Shown: positions 35,428-43,639 of the stretch, in pieces | How the letters are laid out: each line of letters begins with the position of its first letter | Numbering within the stretch: the first letter of the stretch is position 1 | DNA from: Pelagibacterium sp. 26DY04 | GTDB lineage: Bacteria; Pseudomonadota; Alphaproteobacteria; Rhizobiales; Devosiaceae | Assembly: GCF_031202305.1 (NCBI RefSeq) | Contig: NZ_CP101731.1 | Span: 2,976,001 to 3,040,000, forward strand | Direction: 5' to 3' | Length of the DNA: 64,000 nt | Program-made: the position numbers and the translations under genes | Notes under the pieces: generated by a model | The model's database searches: none | What the model saw: the letters and a program-made list of their open reading frames with translations, nothing else | What the model was told of the DNA's origin: nothing

Positions 35428-36753
35428 ATGACGATTTCGCGACGCCTTTTTTTTGCAGCGGCCGGTATGGCAGGACTGTCCATCCCTCTTGCGGCGCGTC
35501 CCGGCCTTGCGCAATCGAATCTTGTATCAGCCTCTGGCATCGACCAAACTGCACAAGTTCAGGCAGCCCTTGACAGGGCCGCGCAGAGTTCAGGACGGGT
35601 TGATCTGCCAGCGGGTCGCATCATGGTCAGCGGGCTGCGCATTCCTTCCGGCACCATGCTTGTCGGCATCCCCGGTGCGAGCGAACTGGTGCAGGCGGGA
35701 GACGGGCCGCTTCTCGAAGTTGCCGAAAGGGCCGATGTCACCATCCGAAATATCGTGCTCGATGGCATGGGACGCGACGGAGATATCTGGCATGGCGGTC
35801 TGGTGCATATTACCGGCTCTCAAGGTGTTACTATCGAAGGCGTCGCCGTTCGCAATACGCAATTGAACGGCATTTCCGCCCTCGACAGCGCCGTGCGCAT
35901 CGTCAATTGCGATGTAGCGGGCAGCGAGCTGACCGGCATATTCATTTACAATGGCGGTAGTACCTACATCGCGGGCAACCGCATCTTGGAATGCGGCAAT
36001 GGAGGCATTCGCATCTGGCGCGGGGAGAATGCCTTCGATGGCGCCATCGTTACCGGCAACCGCATCGCTGCTATCGACTGGACCAATGGCGGCAACGGCC
36101 AGAACGGGAATGGCGTCAATATTTTCCGGGCCGATGGCGTGATTGTATCGGACAATGTGATTACCGATTGCGCCTTTTCGGCGATCCGGCTCAACACTAC
36201 CAACAACACTCAGGTTCGCGGCAACACATGCATGGGCTCGGGTGAGGTCGCCATCTTCTCGGAGTTCACTTTTTCCGGATCGGTAATCTCTGGCAACATC
36301 ATCGATGGTGCGGCCGCTGGAATTTCGATGACCAACTACAATGACGGCGGACGAGTTGCCACTTGCACCGGCAATATCGTGCGCAACATCACCTCGTCCT
36401 CTCCGGTCAATCCTGACACATCGCCATATGGTATCGCTGCGGAAGCCGATGCAGTGGTCACGGGTAATCTCGTCGAAAACAATCCTGGCATCGGCTACCT
36501 TGCCGGCTGGGGTCCCTATCTGCGCGATGTGCTGATCAATGGCAATCTAGCGCGCGATTGTGGGATTGGAATCTCGGTGTCCGTTGCTGATGGTGCGGGC
36601 TCGGCGATCATCACCGACAATGTGATTTCGGATTTTCACAAACACGCCATAACGGCTGACCGCTGGTGGGAAACCGTCAGCACCGATCTTGCAGTCGATG
36701 TCGATCGCTTCCCCAATCTTACCGTACGGAACAACTCGATCATCCCAGGATAG
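35428..36753 (+). CDS. Tat-exported beta-helix repeat protein (TIGR03808-like)
   Basis: 441 residues from the ATG at 35428. The signal MTISRRLFFAAAGMAGLSIPLAARPGLAQ has the twin-arginine motif ISRRLFF and a cleavable AQ site. The rest is a right-handed parallel beta-helix with repeated coils (VTIRNIVLDGMGRDGD, NGISALDSAVRIVNCDV, GNRIAAIDWTNGGNGQNGNGVNIF, GNIIDGAAAGISM, GNLVENNPGIGYLAGWG). This matches the family of Tat-translocated repeat proteins known from rhizobiales. Function unknown; carbohydrate binding or cleavage is the usual role of the fold. It is a divergent paralogue of the 29379-30806 product. Confidence 0.85.
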   Translation: MTISRRLFFAAAGMAGLSIPLAARPGLAQSNLVSASGIDQTAQVQAALDRAAQSSGRVDLPAGRIMVSGLRIPSGTMLVGIPGASELVQAGDGPLLEVAERADVTIRNIVLDGMGRDGDIWHGGLVHITGSQGVTIEGVAVRNTQLNGISALDSAVRIVNCDVAGSELTGIFIYNGGSTYIAGNRILECGNGGIRIWRGENAFDGAIVTGNRIAAIDWTNGGNGQNGNGVNIFRADGVIVSDNVITDCAFSAIRLNTTNNTQVRGNTCMGSGEVAIFSEFTFSGSVISGNIIDGAAAGISMTNYNDGGRVATCTGNIVRNITSSSPVNPDTSPYGIAAEADAVVTGNLVENNPGIGYLAGWGPYLRDVLINGNLARDCGIGISVSVADGAGSAIITDNVISDFHKHAITADRWWETVSTDLAVDVDRFPNLTVRNNSIIPG

Positions 36754-36989
36754 ATACGAGAGTTGATGGACACGCTCGCTGCGTGGTTTTTTGCTACTCA
36801 TGCATTTTCCCGTCGCGTCCATGGCACCTCGTCGAGTCCTTTCGGTCCCAACAAGTCAAGCCGCTTCCTCTGAGCAAACCTCACATAATGTGCATTTCCT
36901 TAGGTTCTCGAAATCGCCAAAGCGCCCGTGAACCTTGGTGTTCTGGGCAATTGAAGTCTTTGGTCGCTTGGGCGGATCAACGGCAACAT

Positions 36990-37020
36990 CATGAAAGGCA
37001 TCCGATCCACGCCTTTCATG
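36990..37020 (+). repeat. 10-bp inverted repeat directly before the recombinase start
   Basis: CATGAAAGGC (36990-36999) and GCCTTTCATG (37011-37020) are perfect inverse copies separated by 11 nt. The right arm ends 7 bp before the recombinase ATG at 37028 and abuts its GAGG ribosome site. In RNA the hairpin could limit translation; in DNA it could be a binding site for the recombinase or a regulator. Confidence 0.6.
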
Positions 37021-37027
37021 AGGTTTC

Positions 37028-37603
37028 ATGCGCCAAGCCCGAGTGCTCACCGATCCCGAGCTTAAACGCCTGCTGGCCGTGGTGGCGCAGCGCAAACATG
37101 CGGCTCGGGATCGTATGGCCCTGATGCTGTCCCACCTCGCGGGTTTGCGGGTTGGTGAAATCGCCGGGCTGGTCATGCGGGACGTATTCGAGCCCAATGG
37201 CGATGTTCGGGAACAGCTTCGGGTTCGTGCTGGCATCGCCAAGGGTGGGCATGAGCGGGTCGTGTTCATGAGTGAGCGCCTGCGTAAAGAGATCGTCCGC
37301 TACCGGGATGCCCTGCCCGATATTGCCCAGCGGGCTGGTGATGCGCCCTTGCTGCTAACGCAGAAGCGCACGGCGTTTTCTCCGAACACCCTCTGTCAGT
37401 TGATGGGGCAGCTTTACCGGGCCGCAGGCCTCGATGGTGCATCATCCCACTCGGGCCGTCGCTGGTTCATCACTCAGCTTGCCCACTCCGGGGTGTCGCC
37501 CAAGGTCATCATGACCCTAGCTGGGCACCGAAATCTGACCACCACCCAGCGCTATATCGATGTGCGCGACGACATGATGCGCGCGGCTGTCGAGCTGCTT
37601 TAG
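37028..37603 (+). CDS. Tyrosine recombinase/integrase, catalytic domain only
   Basis: 191-residue site-specific recombinase. The catalytic set of the family is complete: Arg in HLAGLRVGEIAGL, Lys in IAKGGHERVV, His-x-x-Arg in SHSGRRWFITQL, His in LAGHRNLTT and the Tyr nucleophile in TQRYIDV. It lacks the N-terminal core-binding domain of full-length phage integrases, as many plasmid- and island-borne short recombinases do. The ATG follows GAGG. It lies 8.8 kb from the tRNA scar and is the only recombinase of this type in the window, so it is a candidate for mobilising the island or part of it. Confidence 0.88.
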   Translation: MRQARVLTDPELKRLLAVVAQRKHAARDRMALMLSHLAGLRVGEIAGLVMRDVFEPNGDVREQLRVRAGIAKGGHERVVFMSERLRKEIVRYRDALPDIAQRAGDAPLLLTQKRTAFSPNTLCQLMGQLYRAAGLDGASSHSGRRWFITQLAHSGVSPKVIMTLAGHRNLTTTQRYIDVRDDMMRAAVELL

Positions 37604-37696
37604 CGACGACACATTTCAAATTGCAATGTGTGGGCTGCGTTCACCCAATGTTGTCTTCTGCTTGGGAAGTAGCGGGTATTTTGATTTGGGGGCACT

Positions 37697-38590
37697 ATGG
37701 CCAAGGCATTCACAAAGAACCTACCAGCCAAACTCGTTGATGCGATCATCTACGCTCGCCGTCACCGGGCAAAGATCATCCAGCCTGTCGGCAATGACGT
37801 TATCCCCCAGTATCACGCGCTGTTTGATCGCGTTTACGCCGCGCATGCGACCGAGAAATTTGCAGGAAAGGGTGTCGATCAAATCACGACAGCCGATTGG
37901 CGGGTGCTGTTCTATTACAAGATGACCACCCGACATCACTTCGACATGGAAGCGACCCTAGCGAAAATCGCCGACGCTCGCGAATACGCCAGCAAAAACC
38001 CTGAGGCCAAATTGGAGGACGGCTGGCGCGTTTCAGACGAGCAGCGGCAAGCTGACCGTCAGCGTGCACTCGATGACATGCGTGCCGATATGCGGACATG
38101 GTCAGATGAAGAGCTTCAGGACTTTGCTGGCCTAAGTGAAGAAACCGCCCAGTTCGTTCGCAGCATCAAGCCCCATCATCGAAACGCCATCGTCGAGGAC
38201 TTCCACGCCAAAGAGCCAAGCCTTCTGTCGCCGGTGGCACCTTTCGATCGCCCCTATGACTTTTCTTTTCGCCGTCGCCCCCCGCTAAAAATGGAGGGTC
38301 TGCGCAAACATTATAACGCCGGGACGGGGAAGAAGAAGGGGGCCATGGATGTCGCCCGTATGGCCGCGAAAAACCTGCAATCGGAAATCGCCAAGCTTTC
38401 ACCGCAGATCAAGCTCGACCTCTTTATCCACTATGGCGCAGATGAATTTGATCAAAGGCATGGTCGGACCAGCAATCGCAACCGCAACAAGCTGCTCACT
38501 GCCTGTATCATCGCCGCCGATGGTAGCCAGTTTGGCGACTGCTATACCTGCAACTCGGCCCTGGTTCAACGTGCAATGGCAATTTTGTAG
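37697..38590 (+). CDS. Protein of unknown function upstream of the TGT-like operon
   Basis: 297 residues, soluble, rich in charged residues, no signal peptide. N-terminal part basic (KNLPAKLVDAIIYARRHRAKIIQPVG), middle with long helices (EYASKNPEAKLEDGWRVSDEQRQADRQRALDDMRADMRTWSDEELQDFAGLS), C-terminal region with basic clusters (GRTSNRNRNKLLTACIIA). I recognise no family. The ATG has GGGGGC upstream. It precedes another unknown gene by 119 bp on the same strand. Nucleic-acid binding would fit the composition but is a guess. Confidence 0.65.
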   Translation: MAKAFTKNLPAKLVDAIIYARRHRAKIIQPVGNDVIPQYHALFDRVYAAHATEKFAGKGVDQITTADWRVLFYYKMTTRHHFDMEATLAKIADAREYASKNPEAKLEDGWRVSDEQRQADRQRALDDMRADMRTWSDEELQDFAGLSEETAQFVRSIKPHHRNAIVEDFHAKEPSLLSPVAPFDRPYDFSFRRRPPLKMEGLRKHYNAGTGKKKGAMDVARMAAKNLQSEIAKLSPQIKLDLFIHYGADEFDQRHGRTSNRNRNKLLTACIIAADGSQFGDCYTCNSALVQRAMAIL

Positions 38591-38709
38591 CCACGAGTTC
38601 TCTTCTTAAGTTATTGATATCGAATACCTTTCGCCCCTCCCGTTCTAATCGAGACGGGTCAGCCAAATCCCTATGCTTCTGGACATCAACACTGACCAGG
38701 AGCAAAACA

Positions 38710-39642
38710 TTGACGACCAAACTTCAACACCACACCGCTCAGAACGACATTCTCAGCGAGCACCACGCCGAGTTCAGCAACGCCTATGAGGCACAGCTGC
38801 GCACCGATGGCCTGGCGATCGGCGAACAGGCAGAATCCGACGAGGCACTGGATGCCTATCGTCAGATGCTCAAGACCACCGACGAACAAGTCCAAACCGC
38901 ACTGATCTCTCGCGATCGCCGCCACGATCTAATCTTGACGGCTAGTTTTGTTTGCTGGGTTAAGACTGCTGAACAGTCGCCCGGTTATATCGACGGCCTT
39001 CTTGGAGAGAGCGATGTGAAGGTTGCGGCAAATGCGGCCTCAGTCGAACGCGCCAGGATGAGCGCTCTCATCCGGCTCGTCACCGGACAGGTTGCAGCAC
39101 GGGCCGATACCAATGTGCGTATTTCCCGCCTCTCCAAGACCGCAATTGGTCTGATCATGGAATGCGAATGCCGTGGCATTGCGGTTCACCTGGGCAATGT
39201 CGTCGATGTGATCGACACCGCTCTGGAGCACAACAGGTCCTATTTCCAAAAGCTCGTCGATGCGCATGAGGCAAGCTCGGCCACGAAAGTCGATTTCCAA
39301 TCCACGTCCCCCAGCTCCCCCGCATCGGAGGCGACGCCCCCCAATGGGCAACCGCATACCCCGCAGAAGCCCGAGCTAGGTAACAATAATGGGAACGCCT
39401 CAGACGAGACCAGTGCGGCACCCTCGGCCCCATTGAGGCTGCTCCCCACGCCGAGCACCGCGTCTCAGGTGCTTCCTGCAGTGATCGGCAAGCTTCCCAA
39501 CGACGCAGGGCTCGACCAGGACTACTTCATCATGCTTGGCCACGTTCGCGGCGACACCATCGTGGTGCGCGGTCCCATCGTCTCGACCCAGGCCGACGAA
39601 GTTCTTCGTGCGCTGGAAAAAGCCTACCAGTGCGCTGCTTAG
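38710..39642 (+). CDS. Protein of unknown function, first gene of the TGT-like operon
   Basis: 310 residues from a TTG start with AGGAG at 7-nt spacing; the frame opens 96 bp earlier without a ribosome site. The N-terminal 180 residues look alpha-helical (EHHAEFSNAYEAQLRTDGLAIGEQAESDEALDAYRQML). A low-complexity Pro/Ser/Asn linker follows (about 195-255), then a compact C-terminal domain (DYFIMLGHVRGDTIVVRGPIV). I recognise no family. It ends 17 bp before the TGT-like gene, so the two are very likely co-translated partners. Confidence 0.65.
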   Translation: MTTKLQHHTAQNDILSEHHAEFSNAYEAQLRTDGLAIGEQAESDEALDAYRQMLKTTDEQVQTALISRDRRHDLILTASFVCWVKTAEQSPGYIDGLLGESDVKVAANAASVERARMSALIRLVTGQVAARADTNVRISRLSKTAIGLIMECECRGIAVHLGNVVDVIDTALEHNRSYFQKLVDAHEASSATKVDFQSTSPSSPASEATPPNGQPHTPQKPELGNNNGNASDETSAAPSAPLRLLPTPSTASQVLPAVIGKLPNDAGLDQDYFIMLGHVRGDTIVVRGPIVSTQADEVLRALEKAYQCAA

Positions 39643-39659
39643 GACGGGAGGAACCCATC

Positions 39660-40934
39660 ATGAAAAACCCTCTCGCCCATACCGGCGCTGCCTATCGTCC
39701 TGCGATGCAGGACTGGATGGCTCGCGTCATCAGTGACGGCACCGCCCCGTTGCGAACCGACGGCAAGCTCAGCAGTGCGGATTTGCACCTGCTGAGCGGC
39801 AGTGGCCTTGCTCACGTTACCCATTTCCTTCAGGCCGCACCCGATGGGATTGAAGGCAGCGAGCGATCGATGGTCGCCACCCGCAATCCTGCGATCACCC
39901 ACGGGATGGCCGACAGCGGCGGCTATCAGGCATCCACCGGGGTGCTCAAGCTTACGGAGCGGCGGCAGCACGACATGTTCCGATTTTCAGAAGCGATGAA
40001 CAGTGCAGCCATCCTTGACGGCCCCACTTCCTCGATCACCAATCCCAAGAGCAAGCTGCGCTCTCTGGCCGACTGCATGAGGTTCACCGAGTCGAACGCC
40101 CTTTATGCCATCCAGCATCGCGTACCGGGCAAAACCAAGCTCCTCAACGTCAGTCAGGGGCGCTCCCGCAAGGAGTCCGAAGAGTGGCTGGAGGCTGTTT
40201 CCAAGTTCAGCGACCCCAAAATCTACGGTGAGCGCGCCCTTGACGGGTGGGCCATCGCTGGAGCGGCACGGCTGCATTTTTCGATCCAGCTGCGCAATCT
40301 CATCGTGCTTCGGGAAAATGGCTTGCTCAGAAACGGCGCCCCCATTCACGTGCTGGGCACTGGGCATCCGGAAGTGGCGTGTGCACTTAGTGCCGTGCAA
40401 TCGGGGCTGCAAAAGACGATCGGCGAGGACATCCAGGTCTCCTTCGACAGCGCCACGCCATTCATCATGGCCGGCAAGTACAAGAAGGCCTTGGGTGTGC
40501 CGACCCTCAACCGCAAGGGTTTGCAGATGACGATCGCTCAGATGCCGCATGGCGACATTTACGTCGGCAGCGATCACCCCTGGCCCGTCTCCAGCCCCTT
40601 CGCCAACCGGCTCGACCTGGGCGACCTCAATGTGCGCAAGGGCGATCCTAAGTCGGCTTGGGACACGCTCTCGCACGTGCTCATCGCCGTGCACAATGTC
40701 TGGGTGATGTGTCGGGCGATCGCATTGGTCAATCATCGGCTTAGTCTCCCCTCCCCCAACCGCAATCTGTGGCTGCCGCCGCGGATCGTCGAGTTGGCCG
40801 AAATCATCCAAGAAATCCTCGTGCGTGAGAACTCGCACACGATGATCGACCAGCATCAGGTCCTTTTGGACATGCTCCAGCACAAGAGCCGGAACACAAA
40901 GCTGCTCGAAGACTACGGCGACGCCGACCGCTAA
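39660..40934 (+). CDS. tRNA-guanine transglycosylase-superfamily protein (DpdA-like)
   Basis: 424 residues. The motif order of the TGT barrel is present: MADSGGYQ (85-90, the general-acid Asp loop), an Asp at 120 (ILDGPTS), VSQGR (164-168, matching the base-binding QGG loop), GWAIAGAA (196-203, matching the GGLA loop), LGTGHPE (232-238) and Asp263 in SFDSATP as the predicted nucleophile. The C-terminal CxCxxC-His zinc site of ordinary TGTs is not visible. TGT enzymes exchange guanine for a 7-deazaguanine in tRNA; the DpdA branch does so in DNA. Divergence from housekeeping TGT, a mobile context and a linked precursor transporter favour a DpdA-like role. Start at 39660 follows GGGAGG. Confidence 0.78.
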   Translation: MKNPLAHTGAAYRPAMQDWMARVISDGTAPLRTDGKLSSADLHLLSGSGLAHVTHFLQAAPDGIEGSERSMVATRNPAITHGMADSGGYQASTGVLKLTERRQHDMFRFSEAMNSAAILDGPTSSITNPKSKLRSLADCMRFTESNALYAIQHRVPGKTKLLNVSQGRSRKESEEWLEAVSKFSDPKIYGERALDGWAIAGAARLHFSIQLRNLIVLRENGLLRNGAPIHVLGTGHPEVACALSAVQSGLQKTIGEDIQVSFDSATPFIMAGKYKKALGVPTLNRKGLQMTIAQMPHGDIYVGSDHPWPVSSPFANRLDLGDLNVRKGDPKSAWDTLSHVLIAVHNVWVMCRAIALVNHRLSLPSPNRNLWLPPRIVELAEIIQEILVRENSHTMIDQHQVLLDMLQHKSRNTKLLEDYGDADR

Positions 40935-40951
40935 GCGCCGCCGCATCCTCG

Positions 40952-40967
40952 GCCGCTGATCAGCGGC
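40952..40967. repeat. Perfect 16-bp palindrome after the TGT-like gene
   Basis: GCCGCTGATCAGCGGC lies 17 bp after the TGT-like stop and 77 bp before the transporter start, in a 110-bp gap. It has no T-tract. It could be a regulator site or a partial terminator that separates expression of the two genes. I looked for a preQ1-type riboswitch in this gap and saw none. Confidence 0.5.
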
Positions 40968-41044
40968 TCTCCCAAAACCCCTGCGCCGTTTCACTCTGCT
41001 GTCTCAGCGGACAGGACCGGTGCGTCTCGAAAAAGGAAAATTCA

Positions 41045-41575
41045 ATGACCACCATCACCACTTCTGCCGGTATTCGGTCGCCCAAGCGCCTTCCCATTTG
41101 GACCTTTGGGTATTTCGGTACCATCGTCTTCGCCAACATGATGCTGCTCTGGTTCGATCCGCGGTTCATCGCTGGCTCGGCCATTCCACCGGCGATCTTT
41201 GCCTCGGGCTTCGTGTTTGTTCTGCGCGACTTTGCCCAGCGGGAAATTGGCCATTTCGTGCTGATCGCCATCATCGCTGCGGCCGGAACCACCTTCTGGC
41301 TGGCCGGCCCAGAGGTCGCCATTCCCAGTGCCTCGGCGTTCCTCATCGCCGAGCTGGCCGATTGGGTCATTTACTCGGTGACCAGGCGCCCGATGTCGCA
41401 GCGTGTCGTGATCTCCTCGCTCATCAGCGTTCCCATGGATACGGCCGTGTTCTATGCCCTGCTCGACATCCTTGATCCGCTTTCGCTGATCCTGGGCATC
41501 GTCATCAAGCTCATCGGCACGCTGGTCTTCTGGGTCGGTCTGAAGTGGGTCGAAGCCAAGCAGGGGGACCTGTGA
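41045..41575 (+). CDS. VUT/YhhQ-family transporter, probable queuosine-precursor importer
   Basis: 176 residues with about six hydrophobic segments (WTFGYFGTIVFANMMLLWF, AIPPAIFASGFVFVLRDFAQ, HFVLIAIIAAAGTTFWLAG, SAFLIAELADWVIYS, SLISVPMDTAVFYALL, LILGIVIKLIGTLVFWVGL). Order and motifs (ASGFVFVLRDF, AFLIAELADWV, SVPMDTAVF) match the Vut_1/YhhQ family, whose characterised members import preQ0/preQ1. It follows the TGT-like gene and overlaps the glycosyltransferase start, so it probably salvages the 7-deazaguanine substrate. ATG preceded by AAGGAAA. Confidence 0.8.
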   Translation: MTTITTSAGIRSPKRLPIWTFGYFGTIVFANMMLLWFDPRFIAGSAIPPAIFASGFVFVLRDFAQREIGHFVLIAIIAAAGTTFWLAGPEVAIPSASAFLIAELADWVIYSVTRRPMSQRVVISSLISVPMDTAVFYALLDILDPLSLILGIVIKLIGTLVFWVGLKWVEAKQGDL

Positions 41576-42612
41576 TGACCGTCTATATCATCGGCCTCGA
41601 ACAGCACGAGCAGCGCTATACGAGCGAATGGGCGACCACCTTGCCCAACCTCCTGAAGACGGCCCTTAACGATGCTGGCTCAACCGAAGATCTCCGTGTG
41701 GTGGAAGGCCACCACACGGTTCAAACCACCACCGAAGGGGCGTTCCTCAACTTTGCCGAGACCAACATCTTCAAGGCTGCGCAGATCGGCCAGATCGCTG
41801 AGCTATTCGCCCAGGGGCAGGTCGAGCCCGGCGATAGATTCCTGTTCACCGACGCGTGGCACCCTGGCGTGATCACCACGCGTTATATGAGCGATTTGCT
41901 CGGGGTGCCGGTCAAGCTCTTAGGTCTCTGGCATGCCGGTTCCTATGATCCGCACGACTTCCTCAGGCGCATTCCCGACACCACATGGGCACGGCATTTC
42001 GAACGTTCCCTGTTCCATGCACTCGACGTCAATTGCTTCGCTACCCAGTTCCACATCAACCTTTTCAAGTCGGAAATGGGCATCAAGGACGACGACCGCA
42101 TCCTGCGGACTGGATGGCCGATGGAATACCTCCAGACCACGCTCGCGCCATTCCGGGATCGGCCCAAACGCAATCTTGTGCTGTTCCCCCATCGGCTCGC
42201 CCCAGAAAAGCAGGTCGAGATCTTCCGCGATCTGGCGGCGTCGTTTCCCGACTACGAGTTCCGCGTCTGTCAGGACACCCGACTGTCCAAGGGCGAATAC
42301 CACCGGCTGCTGGGCGAGGCCACAATGGTCTTTTCGGCCAGCCTACAGGAAACCCTCGGTATCGGGCTCTATGAGGGTCTCCTGTGCGGGGCGGTGCCGT
42401 TTGCCCCCAACCGGCTCTCCTACAGCGAGATGTATCCGGACGAGTATCTCTACCCAAGCAAATGGACCGAAAGCTGGGACAGCTACGTCGAGCACAAACC
42501 GCTGCTGGAGAAGGCACTTCGTCAAGCTCTCGACAGCGCACCGAAAGCTTCAGCGGCATTGATCGGTGAGAAATACTTCAACGCGGATGAACTAATGGCG
42601 CATCTGATTTGA
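41575..42612 (+). CDS. GT-B-type glycosyltransferase coupled to the transporter
   Basis: 345 residues from the ATG that overlaps the transporter stop by one base (TGATG), indicating translational coupling. It is soluble. The C-terminal Rossmann half is glycosyltransferase group-1-like: KRNLVLFPHRLAPEKQVEIFRDLAASFPDYEFRVCQDT, then a sugar-nucleotide region VFSASLQETLGIGLYEGLLCGAVPFAPNRLSYSEMYPD, where the second Glu of the E-x7-E pattern and the conserved Gly are visible. Nothing in the sequence gives the acceptor. Its coupling to a TGT-like protein and a precursor transporter suggests glycosylation of a 7-deazaguanine-type base or its precursor. A terminator follows. Confidence 0.75.
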   Translation: MTVYIIGLEQHEQRYTSEWATTLPNLLKTALNDAGSTEDLRVVEGHHTVQTTTEGAFLNFAETNIFKAAQIGQIAELFAQGQVEPGDRFLFTDAWHPGVITTRYMSDLLGVPVKLLGLWHAGSYDPHDFLRRIPDTTWARHFERSLFHALDVNCFATQFHINLFKSEMGIKDDDRILRTGWPMEYLQTTLAPFRDRPKRNLVLFPHRLAPEKQVEIFRDLAASFPDYEFRVCQDTRLSKGEYHRLLGEATMVFSASLQETLGIGLYEGLLCGAVPFAPNRLSYSEMYPDEYLYPSKWTESWDSYVEHKPLLEKALRQALDSAPKASAALIGEKYFNADELMAHLI

Positions 42613-42626
42613 CCAACCCGGACAGG

Positions 42627-42655
42627 CATGCATCGCTCCGGCGATGCATGTTTTG
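42627..42655 (+). terminator. Rho-independent terminator of the TGT-transporter-glycosyltransferase operon
   Basis: CATGCATCGC (42627-42636) and GCGATGCATG (42641-42650) form a perfect 10-bp stem with a TCCG loop, followed by TTTTG. It lies 15 bp after the glycosyltransferase stop, so the operon ends here. Confidence 0.85.
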
Positions 42656-42925
42656 AGCGACCAGTTTGGCTATTCGGTTGTCGCTTTAGATGCCTTTTGA
42701 AGTCTGCTTCTGTGGATGGCTCCCGCATTGCAAGAGATAATTTGACTTTCTGGTGCGTTGACCGGTGCAGTATTCTGTCCGGCCTGTTGATGCAGCCACG
42801 AAAGGCTGCTGGCCCCTGATGGGGTCGGCGAACAAGGTCCCAATCTGGTTCTCAGGCTGTGATACCTCGGACAGTCCATGGTTTGTCCTTGTTCCCGGGC
42901 TCGGGCACTGACACCACTATACGAT
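42656..42925. other. Intergenic stretch with no recognised gene
   Basis: After the terminator at 42627-42655 about 270 bases carry no open frame that looks coding and no repeat that I can identify. The only short frames (about 60-70 codons on both strands) have no ribosome site and no recognisable product. The L,D-transpeptidase gene begins its 3' end at 42926. Confidence 0.5.
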
Positions 42926-43639
42926 CTAAACCAGCAGATGCTCCATCATAGGATCAGCGATCACGACGAGCGGGCTGCCATCGCGGACATTGTCGGCAAG
43001 GTGAATGACGTCCTGATTGAGCATGCGGATACAGCCTGACGAAACTGCCCGACCGATGCTCCAGAACTCCGGATTGCCGTGAATGCGGTAGATTGTGTCG
43101 CGGTTGCCCTCGTGGATGTACAACGCGCGGGCGCCGAGGGGGTTATCAAGCCCTGGGGCCATGCCGCCGTTTGCGATACTGACCGGCTCAAGTTCAGGCT
43201 GGCGTGCCACCATCTCGTTGGGAGGATTCCAGCGCGGCCATTCCCGCTTGTAGGCAATATGCCTGCCCCGGCCCGCCCAGGAGAACCCATCTCTGCCAAC
43301 ACCCACACCATACCGGGTCGCGCGCCCACCCGAGCCCACATGATAGAGATATCGGTTCGGTGTATCGACTACCACCGTGCCGGCCCTCTCGGTTGTCGGA
43401 TAGTCGACTTCGGTGCGCCACCATTTGGGGTCGACCTGCGACACGTCGACTTCCGGGATCGGAAACCGCTCATTAGCCATGGCGTAGTACATCGGAGGCG
43501 TTGGTGGCGCTGGCGGCGGCATAACCGGTTGAGCCATCTGCGGCCGCTGAACGGTCGATGCGCATCCTGCCATAGCCAGCGACGCCGCGCCCGCGAGGAA
43601 TAAGCGACGACTGGGCAAACTTGCTTTGTCTTTCAACAC
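42926..43639 (-). CDS. L,D-transpeptidase, lipoprotein/Tat-type signal
   Basis: YkuD-type enzyme of 237 residues that makes 3-3 peptidoglycan cross-links or anchors proteins. The N-terminus PSRRLFLAGAASLAMAGCAS combines a twin arginine with a lipobox-like AGC. A Pro-rich linker follows (about 35-52). The catalytic motif is IHGNPEFWSIGRAVSSGCIRMLNQDVIHL (HGN ... SxGCIRM, Cys nucleophile). Start is GTG at 43639; ribosome site weak. A CTTATG-N5-CTTAAG box lies 51 bp upstream, linking it to the two-component system at 46.3-48.3 kb. Confidence 0.9.
   Translation of the reverse strand: MLKDKASLPSRRLFLAGAASLAMAGCASTVQRPQMAQPVMPPPAPPTPPMYYAMANERFPIPEVDVSQVDPKWWRTEVDYPTTERAGTVVVDTPNRYLYHVGSGGRATRYGVGVGRDGFSWAGRGRHIAYKREWPRWNPPNEMVARQPELEPVSIANGGMAPGLDNPLGARALYIHEGNRDTIYRIHGNPEFWSIGRAVSSGCIRMLNQDVIHLADNVRDGSPLVVIADPMMEHLLV

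Follow-up and report, generated by a model that had tools for sequence, protein, structure and literature searches.

What does a bacterium gain from a small island that places a relative of the tRNA-guanine transglycosylases (TGTs) beside a transporter and a glycosyltransferase (GT)? The question is raised by a 64,000-nt stretch (the window) of the one-contig, 3.89-Mb genome of Pelagibacterium sp. 26DY04. Six plus-strand genes lie here between a beta-helix gene ending at 36753 and a gene at 42926–43639, in the order recombinase, 297-aa protein, 310-aa protein, TGT-like enzyme, VUT-like transporter, and GT (Table 1). An earlier note, made from the sequence, had read the locus as salvage of a 7-deazaguanine base, its insertion into nucleic acid, and decoration of the inserted base with a sugar. 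This reading is supported by the genes, their predicted folds, the conserved residues, the coupling of TGT-like enzyme and GT across phages and bacterial islands, and the kinship of the GT with QTMAN. We infer that the substrate is DNA, and the island is probably a 7-deazaguanine hypermodification system that would take up a base, insert it into DNA, and then add a sugar.

Coupling of the TGT-like enzyme and the GT in phages

Profile scans of viral contigs provided the best 80 loci each for the TGT-like enzyme and the GT (more exist); the two sets overlap in some contigs and share much ancestry. A GT was found in 57 of the best 80 TGT-like loci, and a TGT-like gene in 63 of the best 80 GT loci. 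Where at least 4 kb of downstream sequence was available, all 48 TGT-like loci had a GT (54/56 with at least 2 kb); likewise, all 60 GT loci with at least 4 kb upstream had a TGT-like gene (63/65 with at least 2 kb). In addition, GT loci with at least 4 kb downstream carried FolE (52/57) and QueE (51/57).

Searches of 50,697 phage records showed the TGT-like protein in 13, the GT in 20, and both in 12. Of these 12, 11 are Pseudomonas records, among which one phage appears twice, and the other is that of Sinorhizobium phage Phosso. The Pseudomonas jumbo phages Paride and PA5oct are among the carriers of both. The sole record with only the TGT-like gene, Vibrio 2.275.O, is a partial genome in which QueF, VUT, QueC, and FolE adjoin it. 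Eight records had only the GT: Acidovorax phage ACP17, entered twice, and six others at 23–24% identity. The arrangement of the pair differs among phages. In Paride, DNA polymerase genes precede the pair, the two genes overlap by one base, and QueE follows. In Phosso, they lie ~170 kb apart, with the GT adjoining folE and queE and the TGT-like gene adjoining DNA primase and helicase genes. In ACP17, the order is QueD-FolE-c46-DpdA2-like-GT-c47-QueE, and the gene for the DpdA2-like protein of 424 aa overlaps that of the GT.

A tree of the TGT-like proteins (178 rows, reduced by dereplication to 51, 16 of them viral) placed the pairing with a GT on separate branches, with five changes, at least two of which are forced by well-supported branches. 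The paired branches are a jumbo-phage clade, a clade of Phosso and the same-genus genome G413, a clade of the window, Aurantimonas, and Devosia, and the long branch of ACP17. The survey of relatives proposed in the earlier note found the TGT-like enzyme and the GT tightly linked, accompanied by preQ0-pathway genes in phages and by VUT in bacteria.

Other genes recur at these loci. One, c47 (~131 aa, phrog_17812, uncharacterised), is no more than 300 bases away from the GT in 113 of the 125 loci that contain both genes (each overlapping locus counted separately); it is also present in Aurantimonas and represents a further component of the loci. Its assignment as QueD found no support (hhalign 1%). 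Another, c46 (~175 aa), matches no Pfam or NCBIfam family and was found in 66/80 viral TGT-like loci, in 66/80 viral GT loci, and next to the DpdA2-like gene of ACP17. Some viral loci have UDP-glucose dehydrogenase-like, alcohol dehydrogenase-like, and GFO/IDH/MocA-like genes near or between the TGT-like gene and the GT, and the dehydrogenase-like and GFO/IDH/MocA-like neighbors would fit with the making of an unusual nucleotide sugar.

The TGT-like enzyme

The predicted structure of the 39660–40934 product is a TGT (beta/alpha)8 barrel (pLDDT 92.9). Foldseek returned three PDB matches to this model at E≤0.001, with the solved DpdA structure 7ui4 second, so that the fold check suggested for this protein came out in favor of a DpdA-like enzyme. 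The 50 fold matches listed by VIA for the predicted protein were all tRNA TGTs, and 7ui4 was not among them.

The residues expected of a base-exchange enzyme were compared in an alignment of 181 rows, near-copies included. DSGG was found in 181/181 rows, Q90 in 179, Q166 in 174, and G167 in 177, and D85, D120, and D263 were invariant (181/181). These three aspartates presumably correspond to the catalytic and base-recognition residues D102, D156, and D280 of Zymomonas mobilis TGT, to which they were matched by motif order, without superposition. The arginine of the QGR named in the earlier note is not part of a motif, as it occurs in only 11 of the 181 rows. While tRNA TGTs carry a Cys3His zinc site, no cysteine was found in the invariant or nearly invariant columns of the TGT-like profile A1 (24 rows).

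Sequence similarity to characterized families was low. TIGR00432 matched with E=0.0019 and 16.7 bits (cut-off 350), and searches of PDB sequences with the protein and its profile gave nothing at E≤1. As a single query against viral contigs the window protein found no relative; profile A1 did find relatives. On sequence grounds, the protein is a remote TGT relative and not a Pfam TGT.

The glycosyltransferase

The 41575–42612 product is a GT4-type GT-B enzyme. It has the GT-B fold together with R-x4-K and E-x7-E, the donor motifs of GT4 glycosyltransferases, and its nearest folds are BshA, MshA, and sucrose-phosphate synthase. Its profile found no GT4 protein at E≤10 among 177,635 PDB sequences, and matched QTMAN-family proteins, at the same database size, with E values of 6e-10 to 2e-7 (six best). 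The C-terminal half of the GT matched QTMAN by profile (97.7%), indicating kinship of the donor domains, and an R-L-x-Y-x-E stretch is common to both. As a control, none of 13 other window proteins (none a GT) exceeded 1% with either QTMAN-comparison profile. PF12038 (QTMAN_N) was not detected in the GT at E≤1. QTMAN, which we take to be the tRNA-queuosine mannosyltransferase family acting on a 7-deazaguanine nucleoside, appears to be the closest relative of the GT among those compared, the GT4 set consisting of PDB proteins only. The earlier note had placed a dedicated GT outside the systems it knew; the coupling of such an enzyme to the TGT-like protein is upheld and constitutes the new part of the locus.

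The transporter and the identity of the base

The VUT-like protein matched phrog_4899 with E=8e-28, and the phage genes that it matches include some annotated as preQ0 transporters. PF02592 (Vut_1) gave 31.6 and 23.6 bits with same-place relatives in loci L032 and L010, respectively. In the proposed check with PF02592, the window protein itself stayed under the cut-off.

Which base is used was approached through precursor genes in 13 GT-carrying phage records, of which ten are viral contigs that may be fragments; the other three, those of Paride, Phosso, and ACP17, are listed as complete genomes. QueD was present in 10/13. QueC was found over the cut-off in none of the 13, with two matches below it. 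QueF was not found in the seven records tested, nor was Vut_1 in the same number, although Vut_1 is a weak detector that leaves the window's own VUT-like protein under its cut-off. Phage nt-1 (with DpdA2) and 2.275.O (with the TGT-like protein) have no GT match, and both carry QueC. Because FolE, QueD, and QueE are mostly present and QueC is over the cut-off in 0/13, 7-carboxy-7-deazaguanine is a candidate precursor in the phages. The GT phages seem able to make this compound and to go no further alone, although host QueC could still act, and 7-carboxy-7-deazaguanine, not preQ0, may be the base that the phage systems use.

In the window's host, canonical tRNA TGT and QueA are present. Across the whole genome, QueD and QueF had no match, and QueC had two: one over the cut-off, which covers 60/210 positions within a reading frame of 559 aa, and a second under it. 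Because QueA, TGT, and a canonical VUT are present, QueD and QueF were not found, and the QueC match is partial, the host looks like a salvager of preQ1 or queuine. Linked precursor genes are FolE, QueE, and QueD in phages and only a transporter in the bacterial islands. The absence of preQ0 synthesis genes claimed for the window therefore extends genome-wide for QueD and QueF, with the partial QueC match as a reservation. The claimed salvage of a 7-deazaguanine agrees with the island transporter and with the host genes.

The island and its bacterial relatives

The open reading frames, order, and strand described earlier were as stated, including the overlap of the VUT stop and GT start by one base (TGATG). 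To the right, homology to G413 runs at 93.9% identity over 5889 columns from 42926 to the end of the compared stretch. The mechanical reading frame of the 310-aa protein starts at 38614 (342 aa); the start at 38710 is supported because the three nearest full-length relatives have 310, 310, and 311 aa (a fourth, partial, has 266 and a fifth, more distant, 318). In Aurantimonas (L010), a relative of this protein occupies the corresponding position, and Devosia (L011) has a distant relative (hhalign 94.7%).

The mobile setting was confirmed only in part. The recombinase is present, but the tRNA scar is not: neither ARAGORN nor Rfam at gathering thresholds found a tRNA in the window, the four Rfam matches at E≤10 in 36500–43100 included none, and five related stretches had none either. 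No convincing direct repeats flank the island. The PADLOC models matched none of the six island proteins, the presence of Dpd models in that library being unchecked.

Table 1. Positions of the island features and of examples of genes recurring at related loci (L numbers denote loci)
Feature	Position	Strand	Basis
Short tyrosine recombinase, 191 aa, catalytic domain only	37028..37603	+	Phage_integrase PF00589 E=9e-23; phrog_216 E=5e-40
Uncharacterised 297-aa island protein	37697..38590	+	Sub-cut-off LPD5 match E=0.026 only; assigned by position only
Uncharacterised 310-aa protein, 17 bases before TGT-like gene	38710..39642	+	5 relatives, E≤1e-3
TGT-superfamily base-exchange enzyme (predicted), DpdA-like, 424 aa	39660..40934	+	Predicted fold, conserved residues
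VUT/COG1738-like transporter, 176 aa, putative 7-deazaguanine uptake	41045..41575	+	Vut_1 sub-cut-off; phrog_4899
GT4-type GT-B glycosyltransferase, 345 aa	41575..42612	+	Start on last base of transporter stop codon
Right island edge, somewhere inside	42613..42925		Homology to G413 from 42926
c47	L004 9147–9524; L005 7621–8004; L009 7018–7401; L010 11805–12296		
c46	L172 5602–6138; L009 4236–4721		
UDP-glucose dehydrogenase-like, alcohol dehydrogenase-like, and GFO/IDH/MocA-like genes, respectively	L182 2985–3761; L169 6571–7476; L165 4795–5691		
~600-aa proteins	L032 8064–9974; L033 8082–9860		

The window, Devosia naphthalenivorans, and Aurantimonas sp. VKM B-3413, where c47 is interposed, share the order TGT-VUT-GT. 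G413 has a TGT-like gene of another clade, divergent from VUT-GT. Among 136 genomes of the family, the TGT-like protein (E≤1e-6) was found in seven and the GT (E≤1e-20) in three, all within the seven. Without the window genome, both GT genomes fall inside the six of 135 with a TGT-like protein, for which a hand calculation gives ~1 in 600 if the two were independent. Among TGT-like relatives P0001–P0015, eight have a longest contig of at least 6 kb, and 7/8 had a GT (from the best 120 listed) on what is presumed, from equal length of the longest contigs, to be the same contig; the list of TGT-like relatives is not exhaustive and misses the Devosia naphthalenivorans protein known from L011.

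In G413, VUT-GT is followed by a 312-aa protein (L229 3344–4282) with a GT-A-like DDD stretch seen by eye and no family match; it is perhaps a second sugar step. Of the 31 distinct bacterial TGT-like loci (duplicates L117, L118, and L119 left out), 13 contain the short tyrosine recombinase cluster and five others a serine resolvase cluster, three of these five having been tested; the resolvase cluster is unrelated to the tyrosine recombinase. In 17 of the loci in which a GT was not observed, the gene directly upstream of the TGT-like gene encodes a ~600-aa protein. These proteins fall into two families that have no known domains and are related to one another (hhalign 99.1%), marking a second kind of island. 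An origin of the c654 and c12 proteins by fusion of the 297- and 310-aa proteins was mostly rejected: by hhalign, the 310-aa protein matched c654 over just 84 columns (82%), and the 297-aa protein matched neither c654 nor c12.

Proposed mechanism and alternatives

In the proposed mechanism, the VUT-like protein would import a 7-deazaguanine base, which the host apparently cannot make itself. Guanine in DNA would then be exchanged for the imported base by the TGT-like enzyme, presumably with D263 as nucleophile; with a canonical tRNA TGT also present in the host, this second enzyme would be free for another substrate. Finally, the GT4-type enzyme would add a sugar from a nucleotide-sugar donor to the inserted base, perhaps 7-carboxy-7-deazaguanine or preQ1. 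Phage versions would make the base themselves with FolE, QueD, and QueE and, lacking QueC, would arrive at 7-carboxy-7-deazaguanine or a derivative. The likely purpose would be protection of DNA from nucleases, on a mobile element with a small recombinase.

Several observations weigh against this mechanism. The viral counts stem in large part from phages that are related and have a common gene order; 19 rows of the tree have no GT despite at least 4 kb of downstream sequence; and a GT was found in only 4 of the 31 distinct bacterial TGT-like loci, some of them incomplete. Two Pelagibacterium relatives of the GT (90% and 81%) had no TGT-like partner among the matches listed. For the TGT-like protein, no Pfam family matched at E≤1, PF01702 included, so that this proposed check failed, and profile A1 matched the DpdA2 of nt-1 weakly (E 8e-6 in a database of six sequences only). 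PF02592 matched the VUT-like protein with E=4.8e-4 and 20.9 bits, under the cut-off of 27.2, and the host has its canonical VUT elsewhere in the genome as well.

Three other explanations were considered. The enzyme pair might act on RNA, placing a deazaguanine in tRNA or another RNA to be glycosylated in a QTMAN-like manner. The standing of QTMAN as closest relative of the GT among those compared speaks for this and against DNA, as do the exclusively tRNA TGT matches listed by VIA and a host queuosine pathway available as a source. However, the host already has a canonical tRNA TGT, PF12038 was not detected in the GT, and the pair follows DNA polymerase genes in Paride, with the TGT-like gene of Phosso lying next to those for primase and helicase. 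Furthermore, a GT of the same family has a DpdA2-like protein as its partner in ACP17, and nt-1, which carries DpdA2, has genomic dPreQ0 according to excerpts of PMC6884629. Action on RNA is accordingly unlikely, if the least unlikely of the three. A little less probable is that the GT acts elsewhere, on a surface polysaccharide, a small thiol, or a virion protein, and is near the TGT-like gene through common phage gene order only. The relatedness of the viral contigs and the BshA, MshA, and sucrose-phosphate synthase folds would agree with this, and phage GTs can modify surfaces or virions (PMC12619734, in part). Such a role would not account for the recurrence of the pair in bacteria, in Phosso with its genes far apart, and in ACP17 with another TGT subfamily, nor for the nesting of GT within TGT-like occurrence in the family genomes.

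The order of steps could also be reversed, with the GT acting on the free base or nucleoside and the TGT-like enzyme inserting an already glycosylated base. The overlapping GT and VUT genes would be made together, and small molecules serve as acceptors for some fold neighbors (malate in the case of BshA). The base pockets of TGTs are small, however, which counts against insertion of a glycosylated base. Glucosylation of T4 DNA, moreover, is post-replicative (excerpt of PMC13216743). This order is the most doubtful of the three, and sugar addition after insertion into DNA is preferred, with the identity of the base, sugar transfer to it, and its protective role conjectural.

Relation to known systems

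DpdA inserts preQ0-type bases into phage DNA, and phage nt-1, with DpdA2, has dPreQ0, as stated in parts of PMC6884629. The bases described there bear small groups (nitrile, amide, and aminomethyl), and its main text does not mention glycosylation. Going by these excerpts and PDB 7ui4, the island system shares with DpdA and DpdA2 the TGT fold, the aspartate set, neighboring preQ0-pathway genes or a transporter, and a mobile or phage setting. It differs in that its TGT-like protein belongs to a separate sequence family with a dedicated GT, and in that the GT phages have no QueC over the cut-off. Compared to QTMAN, the GT shares the C-terminal half but has no detected PF12038 and is associated with a second TGT-like enzyme, not with the queuosine of tRNA. 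Further DpdA subfamilies were reportedly described in 2023, with bases including 2'-deoxy-7-carboxy-7-deazaguanine. T4-type phages glucosylate hydroxymethylcytosine in DNA. The proposed system would resemble T4 in a phage GT that decorates a modified DNA base, but the island base would be a purine inserted by base exchange, whereas the T4 base is inserted by polymerase.

For PA5oct, a deazaguanine synthesis and incorporation system was predicted by Iyer et al. (2021; PMC7824862, in part), and this part is not new. PA5oct itself carries the TGT-like/GT pair described here; the sections of that paper available tie its glycosyltransferases to outer polysaccharides, not to the deazaguanine system. 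In excerpts, a jumbo-phage review lists MIJ3 with phages that have unusual pathways or hypermodified DNA but does not match feature to phage. The MIJ3 paper does not mention modified or hypermodified DNA, restriction, or queuosine, and the Paride paper does not mention modified DNA, hypermodification, or deazaguanine. Among the literature titles and beginnings of abstracts surveyed, none joins a glycosyltransferase to DpdA or 7-deazaguanine DNA, and a search on these subjects in combination returned no paper, which is no proof of absence from print.

Implications

We lean, with some reserve, toward a new class of DNA hypermodification, in which 7-deazaguanine is glycosylated by a QTMAN-related GT. 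It would be frequent among those large phages in public viral contigs that carry genes for the base, and would have been captured by small bacterial islands that import it. If this is true, a sugar on 7-deazaguanine would unite guanine exchange and glucosylation, two separate strategies of DNA protection, and a DNA-modifying enzyme would be tied to a family named for mannosylation of tRNA queuosine. The conserved gene pair makes the reading testable on isolated phages such as Phosso, ACP17, and Paride. The bacterial islands would represent a compact, phage-free set of the genes, and the chromosome of a bacterium such as Pelagibacterium would bear a sugar-coated guanine.

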